Virus record (IMG/VR): IMGVR_UViG_3300010373_000130
Location: 1-24,904 of that record
Length of the DNA: 24,904 bases
Reading direction: 5' to 3' (one strand)
Source: a virus
Shown: in pieces, positions 2,685 to 22,656 of the stretch
Layout: every line of letters starts with the position of its first letter
Position numbering within the stretch: the first letter of the stretch is position 1
Notes under the pieces: model-generated
Told to the model about the DNA's origin: nothing
The model's database searches: none
The model's input: only the letters and a program-made list of their open reading frames with translations
Translations under genes and position numbers: made by a program

Positions 2685-3449
2685 ATGTTAAAGGCCAACA
2701 GTGACAGAAATTGTTACGTGTATCGCCACATAAGGCTTGACAAAAATCAGGTGTTTTATGTGGGTATTGGCGCCAAATCGCGACCTGACGAAGGTTATCT
2801 CCGATCTAAAAAGACGAATGGCCGTAACCCGCTCTGGAAAAAAATCGTCGCCAAGACTGCTTACATCATTGAGATCGTCATTGATGGACTTACCTGGCAA
2901 GAGGCCTGTATTAAGGAGAAAGAATTCATCCTGATTTATGGAAGGATTACCCTTGGAACCGGAACCCTATCTAATCTCACCGATGGTGGCGGAGGTATAT
3001 TGGGATTAAAAATGTCCGATTCGACAAAGGATAAAATGAGGGCGAAAAAAAAGGGATTTCCTTTAGCGCCTGAACATCGGGCGAAGGTGATAAAAAATCT
3101 GACAAGGAATCTGTCGGAAGAGGCCAGAATGAGGCAAAAGGCGGCCCTGAAAGGAAATAAAAATGGAGTGGGCCACAAAGTCACACCTGATAATCTGAGA
3201 AAAATGTCCAGACTTGGAATACCTCATACGGAGGAGTCAAGACGAAAAATCAGCATAGCGCAAAAAGGTCGGATCAAGAAATCAAAAGGCATTGTTGTAG
3301 CTCTTAAGAATGGGCAGGAGATAGGAAGATATAGAACAGTATACGAAGCAGCGGATGCATTGGATTGCTTTCAACAAAACATAAGCAAAGTTATTAATGA
3401 TCACAGGTCGGAAACGGCTGGATATAAATTTATTAGAATATGTATTTAA
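2685..3449 (+). CDS. GIY-YIG homing endonuclease with NUMOD repeats (HEG 1)
   Basis: A free-standing homing endonuclease of 254 residues that would cut phage genomes lacking the insertion and spread by recombination. The GIY-YIG nuclease is N-terminal: Tyr-Val-Tyr at 11-13, Phe-Tyr-Val-Gly-Ile-Gly at 24-29, and a catalytic Glu, most likely Glu78 in Lys-Glu-Lys-Glu-Phe-Ile. Then come NUMOD3-like basic helices (near 109-124, 144-156 and 185-196) that would lie along the target DNA. Last is a NUMOD1/IENR1-like helix-turn-helix at about 200-250 (Thr-Val-Tyr-Glu-Ala-Ala-Asp, then Asn-Ile-Ser-Lys-Val-Ile). It sits in the terL/gp36 junction and its last ten bases overlap the next start codon. It is clearly AT-richer than its neighbours (37% GC in 3001-3060 against about 60% in portal or sheath), a sign of transfer. 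Confidence 0.9.
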   Translation: MLKANSDRNCYVYRHIRLDKNQVFYVGIGAKSRPDEGYLRSKKTNGRNPLWKKIVAKTAYIIEIVIDGLTWQEACIKEKEFILIYGRITLGTGTLSNLTDGGGGILGLKMSDSTKDKMRAKKKGFPLAPEHRAKVIKNLTRNLSEEARMRQKAALKGNKNGVGHKVTPDNLRKMSRLGIPHTEESRRKISIAQKGRIKKSKGIVVALKNGQEIGRYRTVYEAADALDCFQQNISKVINDHRSETAGYKFIRICI

Positions 3450-4327
3450 TCCAGTCAGACTATAAGCGCATTATCCAAAGTGAAAACCTGCAGGCCCTCA
3501 TCGGCAGCGATCAATCGATCCTCGATAGCCTGGCGCTGTCTGCGGTACAAACCGCAACCTCTTACCTCACCCAAAAATACATCACTGCTCAGGAATTCCA
3601 GGATACCTTAGAATGGGATCCGGCTGTCGTTTATAAGGCGACCAATCGTGTTTATCTGGATGCTGACGCCTACGTCCCGGCGACAGTTTACGCCATCGGA
3701 AACCTGGTGCTGCAGGGCGGAAATATCTATCGCTGTAATACTGCCGGCGCAACAGGCGCCTTTAATGCCGCGCAGTGGGATTTACTGGGCGCGGAATACA
3801 CGATGTTCTACGCGTCTTACCCGAATCCACTATTCCTGCTCACCAACGTCTATGCGGTGGGCGATGTTGTTTTCTGGAACAGCAACTCTTGGAAGTGCCT
3901 GATCGCTACGGTGACCGATAGTCATTGGGCCGATTTGCAATCCGGTTATTCACAAAATATACCCTACGGCAATATCCTGCCGGATGCTGTTGGCCAAAAC
4001 CAATGGCAGGCGATTGCGCCCATTCCTTACACGGTGCCGGCAGCGACCGATATCCTCGATACCGCCTATTGGACGCCTGGCGATAACCGCAACCAGGAGT
4101 TGCTCAACGCGGTGATCGATATCACGCTGTACCGGGTTCACAAACGAATCGCGCCGCGCAATATACCGGATCTCCGCGTCAAAGCCTATGACGATGCGAT
4201 CAAGTGGCTGAAAGACGCCGGCGACGTAGGTAGTAGCGGTATCACCGCTGATTTACCTGTTAAACAACCGAAGAGCGGCGGCCGCATCCGCTGGGGCGGC
4301 AATGTGCGGCGCGTCACAGATTTTTAA
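3440..4327 (+). CDS. Mu gp36/DUF1320-like head protein with inserted surface modules
   Basis: A 295-residue probable head-tail connector or head completion protein. The ends fit the DUF1320 (Mu gp36-like) pattern: an N-terminal helical part (residues 1-60) and a C-terminal Val-Ile-Asp-Ile-Thr-Leu-Tyr-Arg-Val-His-Lys-Arg, then Asp-Leu-Arg-Val-Lys-Ala-Tyr-Asp-Asp-Ala, at 224-253. Between them is an insertion of about 140 residues with two copies of a small beta module: Val-Tyr-Ala-Ile-Gly-Asn...Gly-Asn-Ile-Tyr-Arg-Cys...Gln-Trp-Asp-Leu-Leu-Gly (83-117) and Val-Tyr-Ala-Val-Gly-Asp...Ser-Trp-Lys-Cys (137-153). These resemble CBM5/12-type carbohydrate-binding modules. Plain DUF1320 proteins are about half this length. 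The start ATG 3440 overlaps the endonuclease stop. It is followed three bases later by the portal. Confidence 0.75.
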   Translation: MYLIQSDYKRIIQSENLQALIGSDQSILDSLALSAVQTATSYLTQKYITAQEFQDTLEWDPAVVYKATNRVYLDADAYVPATVYAIGNLVLQGGNIYRCNTAGATGAFNAAQWDLLGAEYTMFYASYPNPLFLLTNVYAVGDVVFWNSNSWKCLIATVTDSHWADLQSGYSQNIPYGNILPDAVGQNQWQAIAPIPYTVPAATDILDTAYWTPGDNRNQELLNAVIDITLYRVHKRIAPRNIPDLRVKAYDDAIKWLKDAGDVGSSGITADLPVKQPKSGGRIRWGGNVRRVTDF

Positions 4328-4330
4328 TTC

Positions 4331-5761
4331 ATGTCAAACAAACCTTCCATATATCAGCGCATCCGCAATTATCTTGTTCCTACAATGGGCGGACCGGGGT
4401 CGCGAAACGGCGCCGACAATAACAAGCCGGTAGACGTCCGGGTGCCGGCCGAGCCGCCGGGCGATCCGACGAAGAACCTGCGCAAATACATCTCTCCCGT
4501 TCAGCTGGCACGGATCGTCACCGATGTGTCCACGCTGAATGCCGGCATCGATTCGGCAGAAAATGCTTGGTATCCGCAACGGGTGAAACTACAGCAGCTA
4601 TTTCTGACCACGATCCGCAACGGCCATGTGTCGGCCTGTATGGACCGGCGGTTGAAACTCACAGCTTTAAAAGACTTCATCGTCCGCGACCCAAGCGGCA
4701 AAGAGAACAAAGAGGCGAAGAAGGCATTGCAGGCAGGGTGGTTCCGTGATTTCATCCGGTATGCGCTCGAAGCCAAAGCCTACGGTTATTCCTTGGTAAC
4801 CCTCGGCGACCTCGTGAACAATGGCTTTCCTGACCTTACGATCATCCGCCGGTTCAACATCTCCCCCGACCGTCTCAACGTGACGCAATTCATTTATAGC
4901 ATATCCGGGGCGAACTTCTTGGAAGAACCGTACAAGGATTGGCATGTCTGGATACCGACGCCTACAGATGTAGGCGTGAGCCGCTGCGGATACGGATATC
5001 TTTATAAGGTCGCGCTATACGAAATATTCTGCCGCAATACGCTCAGCCAAAATAGCACAGCGGCCGAACTCTTCGGTATGCCGATACGGGTCGGCAAGAC
5101 GTCAAAAACGGATGAAGGCGAGCGGGCGACCTACGAACAGGCATTGGCCAACATGGGCAGCGCTGGTTATATCCTCATGGATTTGGTTGATGAGCTCGAG
5201 CTCGTCGAAAGCAAGAGCCTGGGAACCGGCTATAAAATATTCGAGTCCATCGAAACCCGATGCGAGAAAAAGATCAGCAAGATTATTCTGGGTCACGCCG
5301 ATGCGCTCGATAGTACGCCTGGCAAGCTAGGCGGCGACCAGGGCGGAGAAGAATCTCCGGCCGGCGCCGCGCTGCGGGATACGGCAACTGTGGACATGCT
5401 GGACTTCGCGGATCTCTGCACCAATGTCCTATTTCCCAAACTCGTCAATCTTGGGCTGACGATGTTCGAAGGACAGATTTTTGAATATCCGAATAATGAC
5501 GAGCTGGCGGAGCAACGGAGCAAGGAAGATGCGGCTAACCTAGCCACGTCTCAAATTGCCGTGGCTGTTAAGCAGGCCGGCGGCGACATGGATTGGGATT
5601 GGTTCAATAAGCGGACAGGAATGAAGATTAGCGCCACTCCACCGGCCGCGCCGACGCCGATCATTCATCCGCCCGCGCCAAAGCCCGATGAAGACAAGCC
5701 GGATAAAAAGGAAATGCCAGAACGAGTGAAGAATAAACTGAAAAAGTTATATGCCCGGTAA
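4331..5761 (+). CDS. portal protein, DUF935 (Mu gp29-like) family
   Basis: A 476-residue portal: the ring at the unique capsid vertex through which DNA enters and leaves and on which terminase and tail dock. Recognisable DUF935 features are the variable, proline-rich N-terminus, a helical Asn-Gly-His-Val-Ser-Ala-Cys-Met-Asp-Arg-Arg segment, Ala-Glu-Leu-Phe-Gly-Met-Pro-Ile-Arg-Val-Gly-Lys, and the acidic/Gly stretch Gly-Lys-Leu-Gly-Gly-Asp-Gln-Gly-Gly-Glu. The C-terminus is a proline-rich, then strongly charged tail ending Leu-Tyr-Ala-Arg. GC is high (60% in 5281-5340). The stop codon lies inside an 11-base overlap (5751-5761) with the start of the second endonuclease. In related phages the portal is followed directly by MuF, so the endonuclease separates two normally adjacent partners. 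Confidence 0.9.
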   Translation: MSNKPSIYQRIRNYLVPTMGGPGSRNGADNNKPVDVRVPAEPPGDPTKNLRKYISPVQLARIVTDVSTLNAGIDSAENAWYPQRVKLQQLFLTTIRNGHVSACMDRRLKLTALKDFIVRDPSGKENKEAKKALQAGWFRDFIRYALEAKAYGYSLVTLGDLVNNGFPDLTIIRRFNISPDRLNVTQFIYSISGANFLEEPYKDWHVWIPTPTDVGVSRCGYGYLYKVALYEIFCRNTLSQNSTAAELFGMPIRVGKTSKTDEGERATYEQALANMGSAGYILMDLVDELELVESKSLGTGYKIFESIETRCEKKISKIILGHADALDSTPGKLGGDQGGEESPAGAALRDTATVDMLDFADLCTNVLFPKLVNLGLTMFEGQIFEYPNNDELAEQRSKEDAANLATSQIAVAVKQAGGDMDWDWFNKRTGMKISATPPAAPTPIIHPPAPKPDEDKPDKKEMPERVKNKLKKLYAR

Positions 5762-6557
5762 CGCCTATGTATATCGACACATACGACTGGACACCAACGA
5801 GGTGTTTTATATTGGCATTGGAATAAATAGTACGTCATACAAAAAGCCATTTAGTCGGGCATGTTCTGCAAGATCAAGAAGTTCGTTTTGGGCAGCCGTG
5901 GTTGCTAAGACAAAATACTCTGTTGAGATTATCAAAGATGGAATAACAAGATCGGAAGCGATGGATATGGAAGTTATTTTAATTCGTCAATATGGCAGGA
6001 GGGATTTGGGAACCGGAAGTTTAGTTAATATGACCGAAGGCGGAGAAGGGCTAAATGGACATATATTTACCGAAGAGCATAAGTTAAAAATTAGCAGCAG
6101 GAATAAAGGAAGAAAATTTTCCGAGGAAGCAAGGAAAAAGATGAGCGAATCCGCTAAAATTAAAAAATTTTCTGATGAGCATCGGCGAAATATCAGTAAA
6201 TCGCTTAAGGGAAATAAACATTCCCTGGGAGTAAAACATACTTTAGAGACGAGAACTAAGGTGTCTCAGGCTTTATCTAAGAGAAGTTTCCGGCCCTCTT
6301 TTAAAGGTGGATCTCATACCGAAGCTTCCAAACAAAAACAATCGAAAAAATTAAAGGAGGCGTGGGCATCATATTCTGATGATCAGCGGAAGGAGCGATC
6401 AAGATATAAGCTAATGAAGGTTGTAGATACTTCAACCGGCAGGGTTTACGATAGTTTGCAGGATGCAAGTAAAGAATATGGATTTTCGTCTGGCTTATTA
6501 AGTAAGTATTTGTCTGGTAAAAGAAAAAATAAAACCTCGTTAGTCTATGCCAGATAA
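5751..6557 (+). CDS. GIY-YIG homing endonuclease with NUMOD3 repeats (HEG 2)
   Basis: A 268-residue paralogue of HEG 1: both begin the nuclease domain with Tyr-Val-Tyr-Arg-His-Ile-Arg-Leu-Asp and Val-Phe-Tyr-(Val/Ile)-Gly-Ile-Gly. The catalytic Glu is probably Glu74 in Met-Asp-Met-Glu-Val-Ile. Several NUMOD3-like repeats (Thr-Glu-Glu-His-Lys-Leu-Lys-Ile-Ser, Ser-Glu-Glu-Ala-Arg-Lys-Lys-Met, Ser-Asp-Glu-His-Arg-Arg-Asn-Ile) run from about 105 to 210. A NUMOD1-like end (Asp-Ser-Leu-Gln-Asp-Ala-Ser-Lys-Glu-Tyr) follows. It lies exactly in the portal/MuF junction: its start overlaps the portal stop by 11 bases, and its stop overlaps the MuF start by 11 bases. The two overlaps match at 9 of 11 positions, and it ends Tyr-Ala-Arg like the portal. 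AT-rich throughout. Confidence 0.92.
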   Translation: MPGNAYVYRHIRLDTNEVFYIGIGINSTSYKKPFSRACSARSRSSFWAAVVAKTKYSVEIIKDGITRSEAMDMEVILIRQYGRRDLGTGSLVNMTEGGEGLNGHIFTEEHKLKISSRNKGRKFSEEARKKMSESAKIKKFSDEHRRNISKSLKGNKHSLGVKHTLETRTKVSQALSKRSFRPSFKGGSHTEASKQKQSKKLKEAWASYSDDQRKERSRYKLMKVVDTSTGRVYDSLQDASKEYGFSSGLLSKYLSGKRKNKTSLVYAR

Positions 6558-7350
6558 GCCAAAATTTAAATATTCAAAGCAGAAGCTGGAGCAATTAATT
6601 GAAGACATCTATAATGGTGATGTTTCAGAGTACGACATACCGTTAGATCTATACCAAGCTACTGTCGAATATTTAAAGGATGGGCTTTACAGAGGATATG
6701 GCCAAACGCTTGAAGAAGCCGAGGGCGCAGATTTGGATTTGTTGACAGAGCTAAGAGAAAATATATATATGTTTTCGGCGGCAAAAAATTTTGACGAATT
6801 AAAGCAAATGACCGAATTGCTTACAAATGGCGACGAGGTTCGATCGTTTGATGAATTTAAAGAAGCCGCAACCGAGGTCTTTGATATACATAATGAAGAT
6901 TATCTCGCAACGGAATATCAAACTGCGATTGCCTCCGCATCATCAGCGGCAAAATGGGTTGATGTAGAAGAGCAGAAGGATGTGCTGCCGAATCTTCGAT
7001 ACTCGGCGATTATAGATGAGAACACGAGCGATATCTGCCTGCCGCTGAACGGGATTGTGGCGCCGGTCGATGATCCAATCTGGAACACCTGTACGCCGCC
7101 CAATCATTTTAATTGCCGGTGCGTGCTGCTACAAGAAGACGGAGACGCGACTGTTACGCCGGATGACCGAAAAGACAGCGCCTTTGAAAAAGTGGATGAC
7201 GAGATGGACGAGATGTTTAAGCAGAACCCGGGCAAGACGGGGGAGATTTTTGATAAGGATCACCCGTATTTCTCGGTGCCGAAGGAAGACCTGGATTTTG
7301 CTAAAACAAATTTTGGACTACCAATACCGCCAACAGATGAAGATGAGTAA
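6547..7350 (+). CDS. MuF-like minor head protein (Phage_Mu_F family)
   Basis: A 267-residue head morphogenesis protein, a few copies of which sit near the portal inside the head. The MuF signature is C-terminal: Pro-Asn-Leu-Arg-Tyr (148-152), Cys-Leu-Pro-Leu-Asn-Gly (164-169), Asp-Asp-Pro-Ile-Trp (175-179) and Pro-Pro-Asn-His-Phe-Asn-Cys-Arg-Cys (184-192). The N-terminal half (Asp-Ile-Pro-Leu-Asp-Leu-Tyr, Tyr-Met-Phe-Ser-Ala-Ala-Lys-Asn-Phe, Phe-Asp-Glu-Phe-Lys) fits the short form I associate with Bacteroidota phages, so it looks complete. Oddly, the first about 400 bases are as AT-rich as HEG 2 (37% GC in 6781-6900), while the rest returns to 58% (7021-7080), with the switch near 6900-6960. 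The start ATG 6547 lies within the endonuclease stop overlap. Confidence 0.88.
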   Translation: MPDKPKFKYSKQKLEQLIEDIYNGDVSEYDIPLDLYQATVEYLKDGLYRGYGQTLEEAEGADLDLLTELRENIYMFSAAKNFDELKQMTELLTNGDEVRSFDEFKEAATEVFDIHNEDYLATEYQTAIASASSAAKWVDVEEQKDVLPNLRYSAIIDENTSDICLPLNGIVAPVDDPIWNTCTPPNHFNCRCVLLQEDGDATVTPDDRKDSAFEKVDDEMDEMFKQNPGKTGEIFDKDHPYFSVPKEDLDFAKTNFGLPIPPTDEDE

Positions 7351-8708: not shown

Positions 8709-8884
8709 CCGACCCGTTAACCGATCTGGCAACCCTTACAGGAATGGCAAAACAAAACCTGCTATTTTTCAGCCGCAATAATGGCGTATCCTATGCCCAG
8801 ATCAAAACCTTTTATATCACCAACAGCAGGATGCCGACCGTGGCGGAATGCGCCCAAATAAAAAATCGTCCAAATGTCTCGTAG
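8705..8884 (+). CDS. 59-residue protein of unknown function interrupted from its neighbour by HEG 3
   Basis: ATG 8705 overlaps the previous stop (ATGA), and the frame ends at TAG 8882-8884. The sequence has a helical N-terminus (Asp-Leu-Ala-Thr-Leu-Thr-Gly-Met-Ala-Lys), an aromatic stretch Leu-Leu-Phe-Phe-Ser-Arg, and Cys49. No family recognised. GC and codon use look like the phage background rather than the endonuclease. Its last 11 bases (ATGTCTCGTAG) contain the start of the third endonuclease, the same overlap length as at the other endonuclease junction. Before that insertion it probably adjoined the baseplate J-like gene. Confidence 0.6.
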   Translation: MTDPLTDLATLTGMAKQNLLFFSRNNGVSYAQIKTFYITNSRMPTVAECAQIKNRPNVS

Positions 8885-9575
8885 TGTTATATACGCAATA
8901 ACATCCAAATCTACAGGTCGGGTCTATATCGGAAGCGCGGCAAATTTCGATATGCGAAAGAATACGCACTTTTCTCAAATGAGACGAGGCGTACACGCCA
9001 ATAGAAAAATCCAGAGGCATTTTAATAAATGTGGAGAAGATGATTTAATTATATCGGCACTAGAGGATGTTGCCAACAAAAAAGACCTTGTGGAAAGAGA
9101 GCAGTTTTATCTTGACACAATCAAGCCCTATTTTAATATTGCCCCTATTGCAGGAAGCTGTTTGGGCGTCAGACATTCGGATGAATCGAAAGAGAGGCGC
9201 AGGCATCTAAAAAACAAACTAGGAAAGAAATTATCTCCCGAACAAAAGGAGACCGTTCGCCAGGGGCAGCTCAAAAGATTTCAAAACCCACTGCAAAGAG
9301 AAGCCGCCAGCGCTAGGATGAAAGGTAAGGTTTCTATAAATAAAGGAAAAAAATTTACTGCCGAAAGAGCGGCGCTATCGTCTGGCGAAAACCACGGCAT
9401 GCATAAACTAACCGATGCGCAGGTTTTGGAAATTCGGAAGCTTTATCAACCTCCCAGATTCCAACAGGAGCGGCGGGAATATTCCAGCCGAAAGCTCGCA
9501 AAAATGTTCGGGGTTTCTGGGGCTCAAATCAGAAGAATCTTGACTTATACAGACCGTAAAATCGTAAATATATGA
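8874..9575 (+). CDS. GIY-YIG homing endonuclease, I-TevI-like nuclease with C-terminal HTH (HEG 3)
   Basis: A 233-residue homing endonuclease unlike HEG 1 and 2. The nuclease domain begins Val-Ile-Tyr-Ala-Ile with Val-Tyr-Ile-Gly-Ser at 17-21, Arg28 after it, His42 downstream, and the likely catalytic Glu75 in Val-Glu-Arg-Glu-Gln. Two NUMOD3-like basic segments follow (about 98-115 and 118-135). The C-terminus is a resolvase-like helix-turn-helix: Leu-Thr-Asp-Ala-Gln-Val-Leu-Glu-Ile-Arg (about 178-187), then Ser-Ser-Arg-Lys-Leu-Ala-Lys-Met-Phe-Gly-Val-Ser (about 203-214). It begins Met-Ser-Arg-Ser-Val, close to the Met-Ser-Ala-Arg-Ser-Val that begins the next gene. It overlaps the 59-residue gene by 11 bases and the J-like gene by ATGA. 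AT-rich (37% GC in 9301-9360). Confidence 0.9.
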   Translation: MSRSVIYAITSKSTGRVYIGSAANFDMRKNTHFSQMRRGVHANRKIQRHFNKCGEDDLIISALEDVANKKDLVEREQFYLDTIKPYFNIAPIAGSCLGVRHSDESKERRRHLKNKLGKKLSPEQKETVRQGQLKRFQNPLQREAASARMKGKVSINKGKKFTAERAALSSGENHGMHKLTDAQVLEIRKLYQPPRFQQERREYSSRKLAKMFGVSGAQIRRILTYTDRKIVNI

Positions 9576-22141: not shown

Positions 22142-22656
22142 ACGAAACCAGGACCATACGAGAAACTATTCAACGTCTGGCAGGCACTCACCAGCCAGAC
22201 GGGATTAAACTGATCGACGCTACGGTGAATAGCTACGACGAGCCGTCAAGGACCTGCGATGTAACGGCCATTACCGGAATAGTCGGCGAGGATATACCTG
22301 GCGTGCGGTTAATGTCAGATGCTGATGATGGGATATTGCTGCTACCGACAGTCGGAAGTACGATAACCATTGCAAGAAGTGCTTTTACCGATCCCGTCAT
22401 GATTGCGTGTAGCGGGCTGGATAAGATCATTCTGATGGGCGGCGATCTCGGCGGCCTGGTCATGCTGCTGCCGCTGTTGACCAAACTGAACAACCTGGAG
22501 AACCTGGTCAATGATCTGATAACGAAGTTCAATGCCCATACCCATAATGTAACGGCAGTGGGATCGCCGACGGGACCGAATTTATTGCCGGAGAGCGATA
22601 CGCTTACGCCGACAGAACGAGACGATTTAGAAAATCTGAACATCACACAAGGCTAA
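22138..22656 (+). CDS. baseplate spike/assembly protein (gpV / Mu gp45-like)
   Basis: A 172-residue protein starting at GTG 22138 and overlapping the hub stop by four bases (GTGA). It begins with a helix (Thr-Ile-Gln-Arg-Leu-Ala-Gly), followed by an OB-fold pattern: Ile-Asp-Ala-Thr-Val-Asn-Ser-Tyr-Asp, Thr-Cys-Asp-Val, Val-Gly-Ser-Thr-Ile-Thr-Ile, Val-Met-Ile-Ala-Cys. Then comes a coiled segment Leu-Thr-Lys-Leu-Asn-Asn-Leu-Glu-Asn-Leu and the typical Phe-Asn-Ala-His-Thr-His-Asn-Val-Thr motif. The His-x-His pair near the C-terminus is common in phage spikes of this class and may bind metal. It would form the trimeric needle under the hub. Confidence 0.82.
   Translation: MNETRTIRETIQRLAGTHQPDGIKLIDATVNSYDEPSRTCDVTAITGIVGEDIPGVRLMSDADDGILLLPTVGSTITIARSAFTDPVMIACSGLDKIILMGGDLGGLVMLLPLLTKLNNLENLVNDLITKFNAHTHNVTAVGSPTGPNLLPESDTLTPTERDDLENLNITQG

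Follow-up and report, generated by a model that had tools for sequence, protein, structure and literature searches.

Probable takeover of the MuF start codon by a free-standing homing endonuclease gene in a Mu-like phage

A homing endonuclease gene (HEG2) lies between the portal and MuF genes of a Mu-like phage, with similar overlaps of stop and start codons (hinges) at its two ends. With moderate confidence, we consider its arrival best explained by ordinary intronless homing, in which HEG2 took over the start codon of the MuF gene and probably brought along a foreign 5' part of that gene. What is new with regard to known insertions of free-standing homing endonucleases would be, in our best reading, this takeover of the start codon of the next gene.

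Genome context and relatives

The window (the whole stretch of DNA that was analysed, 24,904 nucleotides) comes from the 24.9-kb IMG/VR record IMGVR_UViG_3300010373_000130, a Mu-like phage whose kin are Bacteroidota phages and prophages. The portal, MuF, and endonuclease genes of the window and their hinges are all on the plus strand. The portal gene, which is Mu gp29-like and ends in KKLYAR* (4331 to 5761; Pfam PF06074, E = 2e-41), is followed by HEG2 (5751 to 6557) and by the gene for a MuF-like minor head protein (6547 to 7350; PF04233, E = 1.5e-18; phrog_19194, E = 5e-53).

Scans with the portal and MuF as single-sequence queries recovered zero relatives; alignment queries did recover them and yielded 100 distinct portal-MuF junctions. 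The nearest relative is one phage that appears under three labels (L083, L243, and L291), with 71% identity in the portal and 59% in MuF, and a second pair of scans seeking closer kin returned just this phage again. At the matching junctions, L243/L291 carries none of the three endonuclease genes of the window (HEG1, HEG2, and HEG3), and it provides an empty site for each of these free-standing insertions.

The portal-MuF junction

The portal stop and the HEG2 start share bases within ATGCCCGGTAA (5751 to 5761), as do the HEG2 stop and the MuF start within ATGCCAGATAA (6547 to 6557). The original prediction that both hinges match at 9 of 11 positions is correct, with 6 of the 11 letters being forced by the ATG and the stop, and the match becomes 10 of 12 when the preceding T is included (TATGCCCGGTAA at 5750 to 5761 and TATGCCAGATAA at 6546 to 6557). 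The proteins also share their end residues, as the portal ends in ...KKLYAR* and HEG2 in ...SLVYAR*, while HEG2 starts with MPGN and MuF with MPDK.

A direct overlap between portal and MuF had been predicted for relatives without the insertion, and this is what the nearest relative contains: its two genes share 11 bases, ATGGCAGGTGA, at homologous codons, and the portal C terminus of the window pairs residue for residue with the KLYGR* of L243. Other insert-free overlaps (ATGCCCGCCCGTAG in L115, -14; ATGCTAAGTAA in L139, -11; ATGCTTAA in L156, -8) also have the MuF start inside the terminal Tyr codon of the portal, and this codon plus a G (TAT-G) makes up the MuF ATG in 10 uninterrupted relatives. 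Because the nearest relative without HEG2 overlaps by 11 bases at the same codons, which are those of the MuF start in insert-free relatives, we read the upstream hinge as the original one, that is, as the ancestral portal-MuF hinge, with the HEG2 ATG being on this reading the former start codon of MuF. An inserted ORF of at least 58 codons opens at the Tyr-hinge ATG in the window and in five interrupted relatives (L096, L098, L124, L319, and L343); the chance of six captured hinge ATGs is about 0.05, a value obtained with a generous background that includes coding ATGs and that we treat as weak.

The spacing of the junction varies widely over the 100 distinct junctions (-20, -17, -14, -11, -8, -4, -1, 0, +2, +3, +12, and more), and one third of them contain inserts, several of which are small ORFs coupled at both ends. 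The possibility that 11-base overlaps are generic in this phage group holds only in part, as they are present in the relatives but are just one of many junction types. The coupling on both sides that was pointed out in the original prediction is generic and not peculiar to HEG2, since the junction is fluid and small inserts are doubly coupled too. The accessory ORFs found between portal and MuF in other Bacteroidota Mu-like phages (L096, L124, and L319) are like HEG2 in that they open at the Tyr-hinge ATG and run into MuF, but they are not endonucleases, and their hinge letters are not copied downstream.

As a separate observation, relatives use the junction between portal and MuF as a slot for cargo (e.g., L096, L124, L111, L097, L117, and L306), often small ORFs. 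Recurrent insert families include FKTRRHKKEL...NPKLLFDTQKKFEQAFG and a family ending in ITKAEW, mostly without a Pfam match.

HEG2 as a putative homing endonuclease

HEG2, a free-standing gene, appears to code for a GIY-YIG-like homing endonuclease that carries NUMOD3 and a DNA-binding end of the I-TevI/I-HmuI type. HEG2 matches phrog_314 (homing endonuclease; E = 1e-25) but not PF01541 in Pfam, which HEG3 does match (E = 7e-9). Among 29 HEG2 relatives, Y8, Y20, G22, R36, and N93 are invariant and E74 and I21 nearly so, a pattern that agrees with the residues of the GIY-YIG family. The best matches of the HEG2 model in the PDB (Foldseek) are the 5hmC-specific endonuclease PD-T4-3 and I-TevI domains, with weak E values of 0.01 to 0.2. 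The tail is of the modular DNA-binding kind, with NUMOD3 (E = 5e-13) and profile matches to 1i3j (E = 0.015) and 1u3e (E = 0.004). We infer that HEG2 is active as an endonuclease and that it probably cuts within the 5' region of MuF.

As the predicted strands of HEG2 span from residue 5, where the first opens, to Tyr266, where the last closes, the MPGN and AR termini fall outside them. Endonucleases related to HEG2 natively end in ...NKTNLRYA* and ...INMKYA*, and the terminal Tyr of HEG2 is, going by the model and these homologs, native to the endonuclease protein.

Origin of the 5' part of MuF

HEG2 (0.34) and MuF codons 1 to 133 (0.36) have a lower third-position GC than the portal (0.64) and the rest of MuF (0.56), and the step from the N to the C terminus of MuF is the most extreme of about 99 MuF genes (z = -4.0 versus 98 relatives). 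The kinship of the two halves of MuF is also conflicting. The portal tree groups the window with L291 (support of 0.999), and in the AU test this grouping is rejected for MuF residues 1 to 133 (p = 0.0008) and not rejected for residues 134 to 262 (p = 0.28), with L292/L293 being the tree-nearest kin of the former. An AT-rich tract (5762 to 6945) that comprises HEG2 and ~130 codons at the 5' end of MuF was probably imported as a unit; its right edge is approximate, as it is placed by composition only. MuF residues 67 to 133 are clearly unlike L291; since residues 13 to 66 are still closest to it (63%), the import may have been patchy, or L291 may itself be a recombinant. None of the relatives examined was a donor phage carrying HEG2 in the portal-MuF interval.

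These results modify the view of the insertion as a clean duplication in which neither gene loses a residue. The portal is intact and the original hinge is found upstream, and MuF has kept its length, but its first ~130 codons are probably not its own, being foreign in composition and having other nearest kin than the portal and the C-terminal half of MuF, and the downstream copy is explained by MuF codons. Because the 5' part of MuF is probably foreign, the hinges are better read as the fossil of the recipient and the MuF start of the donor than as a local duplication.

In the scenario that we propose, the ancestor would have had an 11-base portal-MuF overlap, with the MuF ATG within the last Tyr codon of the portal (TAT-G). 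A related AT-rich phage would probably have been the source of HEG2, which would have entered by double-strand-break repair; the left crossover would lie at the hinge or close to it, and co-conversion would have carried in the first ~130 MuF codons. The ancestral MuF ATG, together with a few fossil MuF codons (MPGN), would now open HEG2, and the 3' end of HEG2 would run into the live MuF start, the D-K codons of which would give HEG2 its stop. The two similar hinges would then be the old MuF start of the recipient and the MuF start of the donor. We infer a single import event, as well as translational coupling at the hinges.

Similarity of the two hinges and alternative explanations

We compared the start of the endonuclease with that of the following gene in 39 distinct insertions, over the codons at +4 to +15, using pairs from different contigs as the null. 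In this cross-pairing control, the match between the first codons of HEG2 and MuF had a p value of 0.007 and ranked second after L052 (LTYLE versus MTYLE), which was reached by no null pair. The resemblance is real but modest, short, and limited to the first codons, because p rises to 0.09 when leader bases are added and an unregistered local comparison of the flanks was not significant for HEG1, HEG2, or HEG3.

The signal is weakened by what other MuF starts look like: in 82 of them from relatives, the portal/HEG frame meets its first stop at exactly +11 in 19, the commonest class, and at +8 to +14 in 43, and the M-x-D-K codons hold a frame-shifted TAA. In L343, in which MuF lies 642 bases from the portal, the MuF start carries TATGGCAGATAA, identical at 11 of 12 positions to the downstream hinge of the window. 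A copied portal end is unnecessary for the downstream hinge, because MuF starts commonly give a stop at +11 and because of this match in L343; judging by these starts, the downstream TAA is intrinsic to the MuF D-K codons, and the hinge is explained by the MuF MPDK codons and the endonuclease-native Tyr. A transposon-like target-site duplication would be an exact repeat that is single in the empty site, and the two copies here differ at 2 of 12 positions, with the flank beyond being of other origin; flanks that look alike are not necessarily the product of a target-site duplication.

A local duplication, in which HEG2 entered the phage's own hinge and the 12 bases TATGCCNGNTAA were copied on both sides by microhomology-mediated repair, could account for the hinge similarity in the cross-pairing control (p = 0.007). 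T4 introns offer a known example of illegitimate repair at microhomology (PMC2988022), and this endonuclease family does include cases of copied first codons, as in L052 and its kin the (L/M)TYLE endonuclease and the MTYLE tail gene have similar leaders. We nevertheless consider a local duplication unlikely, as the 5' half of MuF and the portal differ in origin, the MuF codons predict the downstream letters (11 of 12 in L343), and HEG1 and HEG3 are inserted without a copy of the hinge at the DNA level. It is quite improbable that the hinges converged without shared descent, with HEG2 sitting at a tight junction and selection for overlap, the native Tyr, and the MPDK codons making a similar hinge. 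The native family ends (NKTNLRYA* and INMKYA*), the position of Tyr266 within the last predicted strand, and the +11 stop as the commonest class among MuF starts, in a group in which overlaps are common, would all allow it, but the first-codon match of HEG2 and MuF (p = 0.007) and the HEG2 ATG exactly on the ancestral MuF start speak against it.

Comparison with known systems

In T4, free-standing endonuclease genes overlap the gene before them (by 11 bp in segF), and the enzymes cleave at a distance from where the gene is inserted and co-convert the flanks (PMC2988022). HEG2 is similar to the T4 seg genes (segF, segA, segE, and segG), as a GIY-YIG-type gene between conserved genes that overlaps its upstream neighbor and for which intronless homing with co-conversion would be expected (PMC2988022). 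Unlike the seg genes, its start would be the former start of the downstream gene, and the MuF start would have been re-formed inside its 3' end. T4 mobE, located between nrdA and nrdB with a UAAUGA overlap, is also translationally coupled upstream through a stop/start overlap, but it belongs to the HNH family, its overlap is of 1 base, and the available text of PMC2988022 describes no start takeover for it. The intron endonucleases I-TevI and I-HmuI resemble HEG2 in their DNA-binding domains and, it appears, in their catalytic domains; unlike them, HEG2 is free-standing, and no intron is seen.

Probable start takeover at other endonuclease insertions

HEG1 (2685 to 3449; phrog_314, E = 2e-20), of the same family as HEG2, could be aligned with the empty site in L243. 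Its ATG is at the position of the gp36-like ATG of L243 (leaders of 74 versus 72 bases), the TerL-gp36 leader of L243 is retained upstream of it, and its stop is 10 bases inside the gp36-like gene (ATGTATTTAA, 3440 to 3449). HEG3 (8874 to 9575; PF01541, see above; phrog_314, E = 3e-21; third-position GC of 0.41), a GIY-YIG homing endonuclease that could also be aligned with its empty site, has a leader of 165 bases, equal to the 165-base leader of the next gene in L243, and its stop overlaps the re-formed start of that gene by 4 bases (ATGA, 9572 to 9575). In L011, an endonuclease of the HEG2 family is flanked by homologues of two genes that are directly adjacent in the window (at 22656 and 22962); the gap before its ATG is 0, as in the window, with an overlap of 14 between its end and the next start.

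In all four insertions with a clear empty site, a set for which one relative phage serves three cases and in which start codons are as called, the endonuclease opens at the start position of the next gene, whose start is re-formed in the endonuclease 3' end. A fifth case, in the crAss-like phage L039, fits only loosely (gap of 3 versus -1, 4, and 16). Contig L068, the flanks of which had no match in annotated phages, was uninformative about empty sites, as was the L042 gene pair, the frames of which overlap in a relative. The starts of HEG3 (MSRSV) and its next gene (MSARSV; MARSV in L243) were considered as a second copied start and not counted, because they differ at the codon level.

This pattern could result from nothing more than selection for insertions that are expressed and do no harm. 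A stronger proposal, which we put forward only tentatively, is that the family regularly seizes the start of the next gene, sometimes copying a few codons (HEG2, L052, and its kin), and re-forms that start within the 3' end of the endonuclease gene; an essential virion gene would then be translatable only through coupling to the parasite. If this were true, the dependence of the virion gene on coupled translation would make the endonuclease hard to lose, and the next structural gene may come to need the endonuclease for its translation, a possible route to dependence. The pattern suggests a rule for the harmless landing of free-standing homing endonucleases in tightly packed phage operons, a rule that is testable wherever a phage that carries such an insertion can be compared with one that lacks it.

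Several other observations concern these loci. TTG-started LTYLE endonucleases lie directly before a tail gene starting with MTYLE in L052 (239 to 814), L053 (3983 to 4558), and L055 (3391 to 3966), and copying of the first codons is suggested by the synonymous differences between them and by leader bases that are similar. In L036/L038 (~3808 to 4830), the ORFs that flank an endonuclease open with similar leaders, MRYKEYKEGG and MRFKEYKNGG. L042, L045, and L046 have three endonuclease insertions at one junction (baseplate-hub-like/PGPEYR gene), and the relative Mel-JY01 shows a 29-base frame overlap at an L042-type junction, possibly a frameshift pair, which would be broken up by the insertion. 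Last, the gp36-like adaptor gene of the window (3440 to 4327) contains an internal carbohydrate-binding-like insertion (PF02839, CBM_5_12) in two stretches.
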